Source: Bacteroidaceae bacterium | Lineage (GTDB): Bacteria; Bacteroidota; Bacteroidia; Bacteroidales; Bacteroidaceae | Assembly (NCBI GenBank): GCA_017541025.1 | Contig: JAFXZY010000082.1 | Location: 1 to 34,739, forward strand | Length of the DNA: 34,739 nucleotides | Reading direction: 5' to 3' | Shown here: positions 25,147 through 33,876 of the stretch, piece after piece | Numbering within the stretch: the first letter of the stretch is position 1 | How the letters are laid out: each line of letters opens with the position of its first letter | Notes under the pieces: model-generated | Seen by the model: only the letters and a program-made list of their open reading frames with translations | Databases searched by the model: none | What the model was told of the DNA's origin: nothing | Position numbers and translations under genes: made by a program

Positions 25147-25725
25147 CTATAGCTCATCTATGCTGACAATACCCTTTACTACGCAGTAAATGATAATGTC
25201 GGCAAGGGAGCGAGCGTGAATCTTCTCCATGATATTCTTGCGATGAGAAATAACTGTCGTGGTGGCAAGATTGAGTTGTTGAGCTACTTCCTTATTTATA
25301 TAGCCTTTACAAAGAAGAATTGCCACCTCAACCTCGCGTGAGGAAAGAACCTCCTTTTGGTCTATCTGACGAGCCATATTAATGGCATGATCATGCCCCA
25401 TGTGCTGAAGAGCCATGATATCACTTACTATCTGCTTCTCTGACTGGCAGATATTAAGTGTATGAACATCCTTTATCTGCATATCGCCTTTCACCAAGAC
25501 AATGGTCTTCTTGGGGAACTGACGAAAAAAATTAGGCTGCTGAAAATAGATGTTGGAGGATACAAAGAAATGAAGGAACCCGGACATATCTCCGTGTTCC
25601 ATCAATTCTTTTGCACTTGAATAGACTTGTATATCTGCCATCGGCAACAGACGGCCTAGCAAATGCTGCAGGCCCATACATGTGAGTACATTACTGTCGA
25701 TGACGGCAAATCTTATACAAACCAT
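25147..25725 (-). CDS. LuxR-type regulator with degenerate receiver domain
   Basis: A 192-residue protein. The N-terminal part ([19 protein letters not shown]) looks like a response-regulator receiver, but no Asp is found where the phosphorylation site should be ([12 protein letters not shown] instead of a D-containing strand), so it is probably phosphorylation-independent. The C-terminal LuxR HTH (about 125-190) is clear: [25 protein letters not shown], then [19 protein letters not shown]. Its ATG lies 13 bp inside the end of the phosphorylase gene, so it is translated with that operon and may control it. No sensor kinase gene is nearby. Confidence 0.85.
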
Positions 25726-28310: not shown

Positions 28311-29969
28311 TTATTTCAATCTCTTATTTCTGTTGTTCAATGCTATATTGTAAGCCTCATAGTAGTAACTTATGAAATGTTTCCAGAGTGCTTTTTCGGC
28401 AAGCTTGGCAGCTTTCTTACGAACAGCATCCTGTTTCTTGCTATCTAAAGAGGAATATTGTGCAATGCTCGTTAAAACATTGTCTACCACTTCACTGAAA
28501 TTATAGTCGTTACGTACTATCACCTCTACACCATCCTGAATCTTGCTCGCACGGCCCAATTCTTTATTGGCCCACATGCCAAAGCCGGAAACAGATGTCG
28601 TGATACAAGGAACATGGAACGCAACTGCTTCCAACGGAGTGTAGCCCCAAGGCTCGTAATAAGAGGGGTAAACGGCAAGGTCGTTACCAATCAGCAAATC
28701 GTAATACGACATATCAAAGATGCCATCATTGCCGTCAAGATAACAGGGAACAAAGATAACCTTAACCTGACTATCCTTATTATTATGCATACCATGTGAA
28801 TGCAGGAAATTAATCACACCATCATGCTCCTGATTATGGAGCGTGTGAGTGTACAGCGGGTCTACAAGAGGCGTATCGTAAACAGTATCAAACCTTAGTC
28901 TGTCCTTAAGATCGGCACGTGGTGAGTCCATCCAACCAGGGACTTGAATCAGTGCCAGGACAGGACGCTTAAGATTCTGCTCGTACAAACCACGATACAT
29001 AGTCTCGAGGAACACATCTATACCCTTGTTCTTATATTCGTAACGTCCACTGGTAGCCACCACTAGTGTATCGTCAGTAAACTCTACACCTGTAAGAGCG
29101 TTTGCTACACGGAATATCTGCTTGCGGGCTTTCTCTCTGGCTGCAGTAAACTTGGCGCCACGAGGAACAAAGTCTTGCTCGAAACCATTCATCAGAACGG
29201 CATCACATTCTTTGTCCAGCAACTCTTTGCACTCGTTGGCTGTAACATCGCTAACGGTTGTAAAACAGTCCACATTATGTGCTGTCTGGCGCTCAATACT
29301 ATGCTTCGACTCCATGTTTAGTTCCTGAGCCATCTGATTACCATTGTATGCCCAAAGATAATCATACAAGGGCTTACGGTTGCCGGCTATGCTACGACCA
29401 ATGCTGGTTGCATGAGTGGTAAAGATGGTTGCAATCTGAGGTACTTTCTGCTGGATGTATAATGCACCCATGCAAGTCATCCATTCGTGTACCTGATATA
29501 CGACATTCTTTTTCTTTTTCAGATTATGACGATAGAAGCTTTCAACCACCAGTCCGGCTGCGTATGCAAACATACAGGCTTCGTCGTAGTCGCCGTATGC
29601 ATGTAGGCTATCAACCTGATAATAGTTCCAGGCGGCTGCGTAAATATCGTTCTTTATAGCAAAGTACGGAGTGAAGTCGACCAATATTACATAGGGCTGA
29701 CCAGGAATGTTCCAACGGCCAACACGAATGCATAAACCTTCCTCGGCTGCTTTCTTTGTCCAAGAAGGCCACAATTTCTTGTCTTCCAAAAAGAGGGGAT
29801 TCTCCTTATTCATCCAAACATCAGGGCCAACGAAGACAAGATTATCTTTATTAGTTTCCTGGAGTGTCTTTGCTCTGGTACTAAGTACGGTGTAAATACC
29901 ACCAACTTTATTACATACTTCCCAACTGCTTTCAAAGATAAAGTCGGGACTTAACTTTTTTTCTGCCAT
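28311..29969 (-). CDS. GT3-type glycogen synthase
   Basis: A 552-residue enzyme that elongates alpha-1,4-glucan. The N-terminus FESSWEVCNKVGGIYTVLST closely resembles the eukaryotic glycogen synthase entry (GT3) and not the KTGGL motif of bacterial GlgA (GT5). The motif YPSYYEPWGYTPLEA (about residues 430-445) is also GT3-like. GT3 enzymes in eukaryotes use UDP-glucose; this one probably does too, but that is inference. Start ATG at 29969. A -7 box at 30002-30009 makes it the first gene of the glycogen operon. GT3-type enzymes are known in Bacteroidota. Confidence 0.9.
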   Translation of the reverse strand: MAEKKLSPDFIFESSWEVCNKVGGIYTVLSTRAKTLQETNKDNLVFVGPDVWMNKENPLFLEDKKLWPSWTKKAAEEGLCIRVGRWNIPGQPYVILVDFTPYFAIKNDIYAAAWNYYQVDSLHAYGDYDEACMFAYAAGLVVESFYRHNLKKKKNVVYQVHEWMTCMGALYIQQKVPQIATIFTTHATSIGRSIAGNRKPLYDYLWAYNGNQMAQELNMESKHSIERQTAHNVDCFTTVSDVTANECKELLDKECDAVLMNGFEQDFVPRGAKFTAAREKARKQIFRVANALTGVEFTDDTLVVATSGRYEYKNKGIDVFLETMYRGLYEQNLKRPVLALIQVPGWMDSPRADLKDRLRFDTVYDTPLVDPLYTHTLHNQEHDGVINFLHSHGMHNNKDSQVKVIFVPCYLDGNDGIFDMSYYDLLIGNDLAVYPSYYEPWGYTPLEAVAFHVPCITTSVSGFGMWANKELGRASKIQDGVEVIVRNDYNFSEVVDNVLTSIAQYSSLDSKKQDAVRKKAAKLAEKALWKHFISYYYEAYNIALNNRNKRLK

Positions 29970-30001: not shown

Positions 30002-30009
30002 CAAAGTTA
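30002..30009 (-). promoter_or_regulatory. Candidate -7 box for the glycogen operon
   Basis: TAACTTTG on the minus strand lies 33 bp before the glycogen synthase ATG. The -33 region reads TTTCG near 30029-30033, a partial match. The repeat element at 30074-30221 lies just upstream. Confidence 0.55.
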
Positions 30010-30073
30010 TAACAATTATCTGAGTGTACGAAATCATTATTCGTTTTTTTGACTTAAGTCAATACATAACAAA

Positions 30074-30221
30074 AAGAGGAAGCTGTGTCAAAATAAAGAT
30101 GTACCTTATGTATTTATAGTCCGTACGGGACGGATACCGAGTCCGTACGGGACGGACTAGGAGTTCGTACGGGACGGACAAAAAACTTCCACGTAATCTC
30201 TTTATCTCGACACAGCCTCTT
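30074..30221 (-). terminator. Long inverted arms with U-tract, candidate terminator after the GH2 gene
   Basis: The arms at 30074-30100 and 30196-30221 pair over about 26 bp with a few mismatches (AAGAGG, then CTGTGTC, then ATAAAG). On the minus strand the second arm runs into TTTTTGTT, a U-tract, so a Rho-independent terminator for the GH2 transcript is plausible. The loop is about 95 nt and carries the three 22-bp units. The arms also resemble short inverted repeats of insertion sequences; a MITE origin is possible but no target duplication is seen. Confidence 0.5.
30118..30183. repeat. Three tandem 22-bp units with a palindromic core
   Basis: The units start at 30118, 30140 and 30162. The shared core is AGTCCGTACGGGACGGA (the third unit has AGTTC). 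In the second unit AGTCCGT and ACGGACT form a perfect 7-bp inverted pair around ACGGG, and CCGTACGG is itself palindromic. Spacers differ (TACCG and CTAGG). Locally GC-rich against an AT-rich spacer. Confidence 0.85.
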
Positions 30222-30228
30222 CATCCTA

Positions 30229-33876
<3,648 letters not shown>

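Follow-up and report, generated by a model that had tools for sequence, protein, structure and literature searches.

A dispersed family of 22-bp palindromic units with copies between genes and in frame inside genes of Bacteroidales

Three 22-bp palindromic units lie between a GH2 gene and the glycogen synthase gene in the window (the whole stretch of DNA analysed, 34,739 nucleotides). They are in all likelihood not regulator sites; we consider it probable that they belong to a dispersed, non-autonomous palindromic family of the MITE or RPE kind, which adds whole codons where it stands inside genes. Copies are scattered, relatives carry the same site without the element, the outer stem shows compensatory changes, and in-frame copies are found in maintained genes. 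From this we infer that the element moves.

The element and its outer stem

Comparison of the repeats revealed that the units of the window start 22 and 22 nt apart, and that over 22 nt unit 1 shares 82% identity with unit 2 and 77% with unit 3 (Table 1). All three units contain the 12-mer GTACGGGACGGA without a mismatch. With one mismatch allowed it gave 3 matches against 0.02 expected, and 3 matches were reached in 0 of 100 shuffles. The initial annotation had described three near-identical units with nested palindromes, a 22-bp period and a distance of about 110 bp to the glycogen promoter box. The repeat comparison and the 12-mer count against shuffles bear out the first, the coordinates bear out the distance, and the period holds in the window as well as in 113 of 114 spacings across loci, most of them picked by a 66-bp model.

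Table 1. Positions of the element, its parts and the neighbouring features in the window.
Feature	Coordinates	Strand	Basis or remark
Palindromic unit 1 of the 66-bp core	30118..30139	+	repeat comparison
Palindromic unit 2	30140..30161	+	own hairpin in both predicted folds
Palindromic unit 3	30162..30183	+	AAAA at its end
Outer stem, left arm AAGAGGAAGCTGTGTCAAAATAAAGA	30074..30099	+	followed on the - strand by the T run GCTTCCTCTTTTTG
Outer stem, right arm TCTTTATCTCGACACAGCCTCTT	30199..30221	+	ends 7 nt from the GH2 stop codon
Whole element, arms and core, about 148 bp	30074..30221	none	
GH2 beta-galactosidase-type gene with ricin-type lectin domain	30229..33789	-	Pfam; element lies 3' of its stop
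Glycogen synthase gene, next downstream	28311..29969	-	Pfam
Candidate Bacteroidetes -7 box of glycogen synthase	30002..30009	-	TAACTTTG on the - strand, CAAAGTTA on the + strand; by eye
TTGACTTAAGTCAA dyad, outside the element, upstream of the glycogen promoter	30049..30062	none	by eye

The units turn out to be the loop between the arms of a longer inverted repeat, which the initial annotation had missed. The 156-nt stretch is predicted to fold with -56.5 kcal/mol on the + strand and -61.1 kcal/mol on the - strand (z -5.7 and -6.8, respectively), and equal stability was found in 0 of 200 shuffles on either strand. No ORF of at least 100 aa lies within the element of about 148 bp, hence there is no transposase gene inside it.

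In the armed elements, about 40 nt on each side of the core form a long outer stem, with arms GAGGCTGTGTC..AAAATAAAGA. Among nine armed elements, compensatory changes were found in 5 of the 20 pairs of this stem (10 cells) and 92.7% of the cells are paired; counted on the - strand, the outer helix has 93.5% of its cells paired. Out of 500 shuffles, none reached the observed covariation score of the whole structure. One shuffle reached the number of paired cells and one that of doubly changed cells; the doubly changed pairs were reached by 14 and the further pair types by 483. Scores of this kind are inflated by relatedness. Of the ten armed elements, eight (six loci by our reading) overlap a stop codon or lie within 24 nt of one, and near the other two, which stand at contig ends, no stop codon was found. 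At L118 and L124, the upstream gene runs 17 nt into the armed element and hence has its stop codon there.

On the GH2 strand of the window, the GC-rich stem is followed by CTCTTTTTG, as in an intrinsic terminator. A terminator scan, which was limited to loops of 3-8, did not report the window hairpin. The window element probably terminates GH2 transcription before the glycogen operon. Elsewhere in the same genome, a recurrent GAGGGTGTGTCAAAATAGGCACACCCTC-type hairpin with a similar loop was observed at L031, L033-L036, L038 and L041; it resembles the armed outer stem and is terminator-like by eye.

Five relatives (G139, G151, G136, G124 and G112) share with the window a glycogen synthase of 80-87% identity and a GH2-type 3' end. 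All five carry a short GGGGAG..CTCCCC-type hairpin directly 3' of the GH2 stop codon and no units. The short hairpin is followed by a clear T run in three of them (L167, L168 and L169) and by none in L170 and L171; the terminator scan picked up the L167 hairpin as one of 5 sites, where 3.7 would arise by chance. Since the relatives have a different hairpin at the window site, the element may have replaced it there, rather than being a plain insertion. A folded RNA element within the GH2 terminator loop had been the second proposal of the initial annotation. This half of its reading is largely right, as shown by the hairpin loop 7 nt past the GH2 stop codon, the short hairpin at the same place in five relatives and the compensatory changes in the outer stem.

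The compensatory stem changes, the position near stop codons and the hairpin of the relatives would also fit a cis-acting class of RNA or terminator which is not mobile, the outer stem being the terminator and the core only filling its loop. We consider this unlikely, because the core occurs without these arms (judged by eye) at many sites, including sites inside genes, and because the count of compensatory pairs in the core alone is zero. At gathering score, Rfam also gave no match in L114, L118, L203 and L075, four loci outside the window, and its one match in the window is a sub-threshold microRNA match (E 0.92, 18 bits against 83).

Geometry, dispersal and in-frame copies of the core

Across species, the unit consists of AGTCCG-N7-CGGACT, a 19-bp palindrome, and a 3-nt spacer. 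Of the 62 distinct chains with two or more units, 44 consist of three units, 14 of two and 4 of four; the loci were picked mostly by a 66-bp three-unit model, which favours the number three, and the counts are of distinct sequences, in which orthologous sites of two genomes may count twice. The 7-nt loops are diverse, with 96 kinds among the 144 loops of 48 distinct arrays of at least three units, and 32 of these 48 arrays have an A-rich end (at least three A in four bases at one end). Three units together with the last spacer make a core of 66 bp, which corresponds to exactly 22 codons.

The genome of the window (3.28 Mb in 95 contigs, 84% complete) holds further full, partial or degenerate copies on six contigs (C10, C27, C35, C66, C76 and C83), none of them within an ORF of at least 120 aa. 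A single unit-like match on contig C72 lies within an ORF and was taken as chance. Search of the GTDB set with a pattern of two adjacent units yielded 14 loci in eight Bacteroidales assemblies, one of which is the window's own locus in the very close relative RGIG3417. Goat or sheep forestomach is named in the titles of three of the eight assemblies, and the 'RUG' assemblies among them are presumably from rumen. In addition, a sequence-only model built from 13 three-unit copies was searched in 139 genomes of the same genus. At E<=0.01 it matched 26 of them and at E<=1e-4 it matched 16, with the window's genome counted among these, and some of the weak matches differ in look by eye (e.g. in G018).

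Copies elsewhere adjoin unrelated genes, and the armed ones lie near stop codons; two contig-end copies in G074 (L116 and L117) are possibly one locus. BLAST of the whole 156-bp stretch against 61 genomes, a query too blunt for the core, matched the window's genome only, which indicates a much narrower distribution for the complete armed form than for the core. A single-unit pattern with two mismatches was likewise too blunt, with matches outside the window's genome no more numerous than those of the reversed control. The element has no match in phages and plasmids by blastn or in viral contigs by pattern. The initial annotation had stated that the same units at many unrelated intergenic places would favour a selfish repeat, and the scattered copies found in the genome and its relatives come close to this outcome.

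Bare cores occupy intergenic positions or stand within genes, and 12 of the 48 arrays of at least three units are located within ORFs of at least 150 aa. The in-gene form is 66 bp long and, by eye, lacks the outer arms. The in-gene position is convincing in six gene families, with support from Pfam, a solved structure or homologues. Several cases were set aside as unsure, namely L139 (159 aa), L131 and L153, all three without a Pfam match, and L219, L125 and L152 (N-terminal, with an uncertain start codon).

In the acyltransferase L075, the insert at residues ~238-260 is spanned by an Acyl_transf_3 match of residues 12-357. The orthologue L260 from genome G166, which is 76% identical over the aligned protein, is without such units; at ~1834-1889, the spot of the L075 insert, it has a different and longer in-frame palindromic insert (GGGGACGGTTCTTTTGT ... 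ACAAAAGAACCGTCCCC). This spot tolerates palindromic inserts. A protein that we label anti-sigma-like, for which no Pfam family scores above its cut-off, has the insert in the same linker in four genomes (L080, L150, L207 and L210). Its homologue L196 has no array, and the difference is not a plain 22-residue gap in the alignment of these five sequences, from which L197 was left out; L195 is the same place as L150.

The insert of the GH106 protein (L072/L076) lies in a linker of 63 residues, where the solved homologue 5mqm has 28; the linker was measured in L076 as the stretch between the two parts aligned to 5mqm. Inserts in linkers are also found in a TM/beta-barrel protein (L203/L206) and in a sigma-70/beta-barrel protein (L202/L216), and no insert-free homologue of either was seen. 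The latter is encoded by one ORF (L202 815-2347, L216 668-2227) which combines ECF sigma-70 regions 2 and 4 with a weak C-terminal match to an outer-membrane beta-barrel. In the sulfatase L212, the stretch with the insert exceeds that of 13 homologues (those of 30 sulfatase loci that passed the ORF filter) by only 2-7 residues, so part of the loop appears to have been replaced by the insert. In the predicted structure of L212 (mean pLDDT 77.7), the insert, residues 157-178, makes up the end of helix 132-161, a turn and the start of helix 170-192.

Outside the insert, the pN/pS values are 0.21, 0.17, 0.11 and 0.27 for four orthologue pairs from G163/G164, and 0.56 for the distant pair L080/L150, indicating that the host genes are maintained. 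The in-gene copies encode the peptide VRxxRTxSPxxTDxxSxxxGL or a rotation of it. The first unit stands in the same codon phase in 6 of 7 gene families with the unsure L219 counted, and in 6 of 8 when the doubtful L139 is added, which is suggestive of a codon-phase bias. The orientation of the element, as judged from the A-rich end, is mixed.

Two further repeats were observed near or within the arrays. A second palindrome family of CAGGGGGACAGACCCCGTGTG type occurs near 66-bp-type arrays (L120 2439, L219 1463 and L204 1573). A variant segment GCGATTGCAACGCCACACTCTGACC..GGTCAGAG stands in or beside one unit in L215, L216, L222 and L226 of G163/G164, as if a further repeat were nested in the array; it is reversed in L216, where the host ORF stays open.

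Synonymous change in the insert is low for the anti-sigma-like family, in which 13 of 249 (L207/L210), 5 of 228 (L080/L150) and 0 of 229 (L080/L207) flank windows are as low. It is not clearly low in the other three gene pairs, with 71 of 354, 97 of 444 and 316 of 1027 flank windows as low, and the total differences in the insert are low for L207/L210 only. Low synonymous change, together with stems and spacing that are near-invariant against the diverse loops, would suit a core that serves as a DNA site of the host, for example for a nucleoid, repair or recombination protein, with a strict 22-bp geometry and an incidental spread. We regard such a site as very unlikely. With a match in only 26 of the 139 genomes of the genus it is not needed by all of them, the other three pairs do not share the low synonymous change, and the spread of the flank windows and the total differences imply that mosaic divergence may explain it.

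The glycogen promoter region

Of the 125 genomes of the genus in which glycogen synthase had a match, the 30 best were examined at this locus. Units are present at only two of these 30 loci, in the window and in G074, its nearest relative, and they are absent at the other 28. The more distant loci among the 30 have a different upstream neighbour. The consensus of the Bacteroidetes -7 box is TAnnTTTG. By eye, this box and a TTGAC(N)TAAGTCAA-type dyad are both kept near glycogen synthase in the five relatives. The TTGACTTAAGTCAA dyad is located about 40 bp upstream of the candidate box in the window, and by eye it differs by 0-2 changes in four relatives without the element and by 4 in the fifth (L170). 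As a candidate site of a dimeric regulator, this dyad is preferable to the 22-bp units. The comparison of the five relatives and the presence of units at two of 30 loci thus place the element where the GH2 terminator stands, outside any conserved glycogen control region.

The first proposal of the initial annotation, that the units are sites of a dimeric regulator of the glycogen operon (e.g. the LuxR-type protein at 25147), phased on the helix by their period, is highly improbable and was rejected, since palindromic units of near-constant spacing and a nearby GerE-domain gene in the window (Pfam) are outweighed by their absence at 28 of 30 loci examined, although close relatives keep the promoter-proximal sequence, and by copies that adjoin unrelated genes and occur within coding sequences. 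Conservation upstream of glycogen synthase, which had been named there as a check, thus applies to the promoter-proximal sequence and not to the units.

Movement and relation to known repeats

For the dispersed, non-autonomous family that we prefer, we propose the following course. The element may move as a hairpin on which an enzyme acts in trans, and would persist by landing where little harm is done. One such setting would be the 3' ends of genes, where the long arms could serve as a terminator. The other would be protein linkers or membrane loops, in which three 22-bp units would add exactly 22 codons. In the window, the element would end GH2 transcription before the glycogen operon, and glycogen synthase would not be controlled by a bound dimer.

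No target-site duplication was seen by eye in the flanks of the element, and no pair of sites with and without it that differ by exactly 66 bp was found among the window site, L212, L196 and L075/L260. PF01797, the only transposase family tested, had no match in the window's genome, which is 84% complete; a REP/RAYT reading was rejected, as no Y1 transposase match was present in this genome. The alternative readings discussed above overlap with the preferred explanation. Tentatively, and with less confidence than the dispersed family itself, we suggest that the repeats may form a new protein-coding palindromic class in Bacteroidota, a frame-neutral triplet which spreads through genes and terminators and whose geometry would be kept by an enzyme recognising the hairpin triplet.

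Protein-coding palindromes have reportedly been found in Wolbachia, and Ogata 2002 is said to name in-gene palindromes in its title as a 'unique but recurrent feature' of Rickettsia. As outlined in PMC2229807 and PMC10969869, RPE are small palindromic repeats of 105-146 bp, found in intergenic positions and in frame within unrelated conserved genes. Similar to RPE, the present element is palindromic, forms a stem-loop and has copies in intergenic sequence as well as in frame within unrelated genes. Unlike these descriptions of RPE, its in-gene form is 66 bp (three tandem 22-bp units), its host belongs to Bacteroidales and it is inserted in both orientations, as seen from the A-rich end; the likeness drawn here is one of description.

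ERIC, the Yersinia palindromic sequence and the 107-bp Correia/NEMIS are described in PMC2229807 as stem-loop MITEs, some of them fused in frame. The present element resembles these described MITEs in its long stem-loop, its intergenic copies and some copies in frame, and differs from them in a core of tandem near-identical palindromes, with no target duplication or parent IS seen. Terminal inverted repeats, a criterion for MITEs, are present in the armed form as its 20-pair arms.

The BrickBuilt MITE of Porphyromonas gingivalis is presented in PMC4596501 as a multicopy element with tandem 22- or 23-nt repeats between inverted-repeat ends, always intergenic, with 18 full repeats in BrickBuilt_5, the repeat AGAYCATARTATCCTCTCRTRTG and the TIR GAGACCTTTGCA. 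The present element shares with that description tandem 22-nt repeats framed by inverted-repeat ends and the multicopy state. Membership in BrickBuilt was rejected, the published AGAYCATARTATCCTCTCRTRTG and GAGACCTTTGCA being unlike the window sequences by eye. PINSR of Prevotella intermedia, according to PMC4755523, is a 188-bp intergenic repeat without terminal inverted repeats, with 177 and 184 copies in two strains. Both are intergenic repeats of the Prevotella lineage, and the published description (188 bp, no terminal inverted repeats) sets PINSR apart from the present element.

The REP superfamilies GTAG and CGTC comprise, in the account of PMC3733652, short palindromic units, some of them intragenic; CGTC stems are 8-9 bp, and head-head dimers predominate. 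The present units are likewise short and palindromic, and some lie inside genes. Unlike the CGTC and GTAG REP of that account, they form head-to-tail triplets with stems of 6-7 bp and, by eye, have no terminal GTAG or CGTC tag. The other literature drawn on for comparison, in part, was PMC2996958 (PARCEL), PMC2635572 and PMC5771137. In the titles and abstract starts searched, with most subscription papers outside this range, there was no description of this repeat or of in-frame palindromes in Prevotella or Bacteroidetes, and this palindromic family with its in-gene copies is undescribed in the literature so covered.

The case of the window also calls for caution, as a scattered palindrome beside a promoter can mimic a regulator site. 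In-frame palindromes are known from Rickettsia, and reviews have since covered them in some other MITEs. A compact form in gut bacteria of the Prevotella type, frame-neutral by its number of units, would give new hosts for studying how such elements move and how proteins tolerate them.
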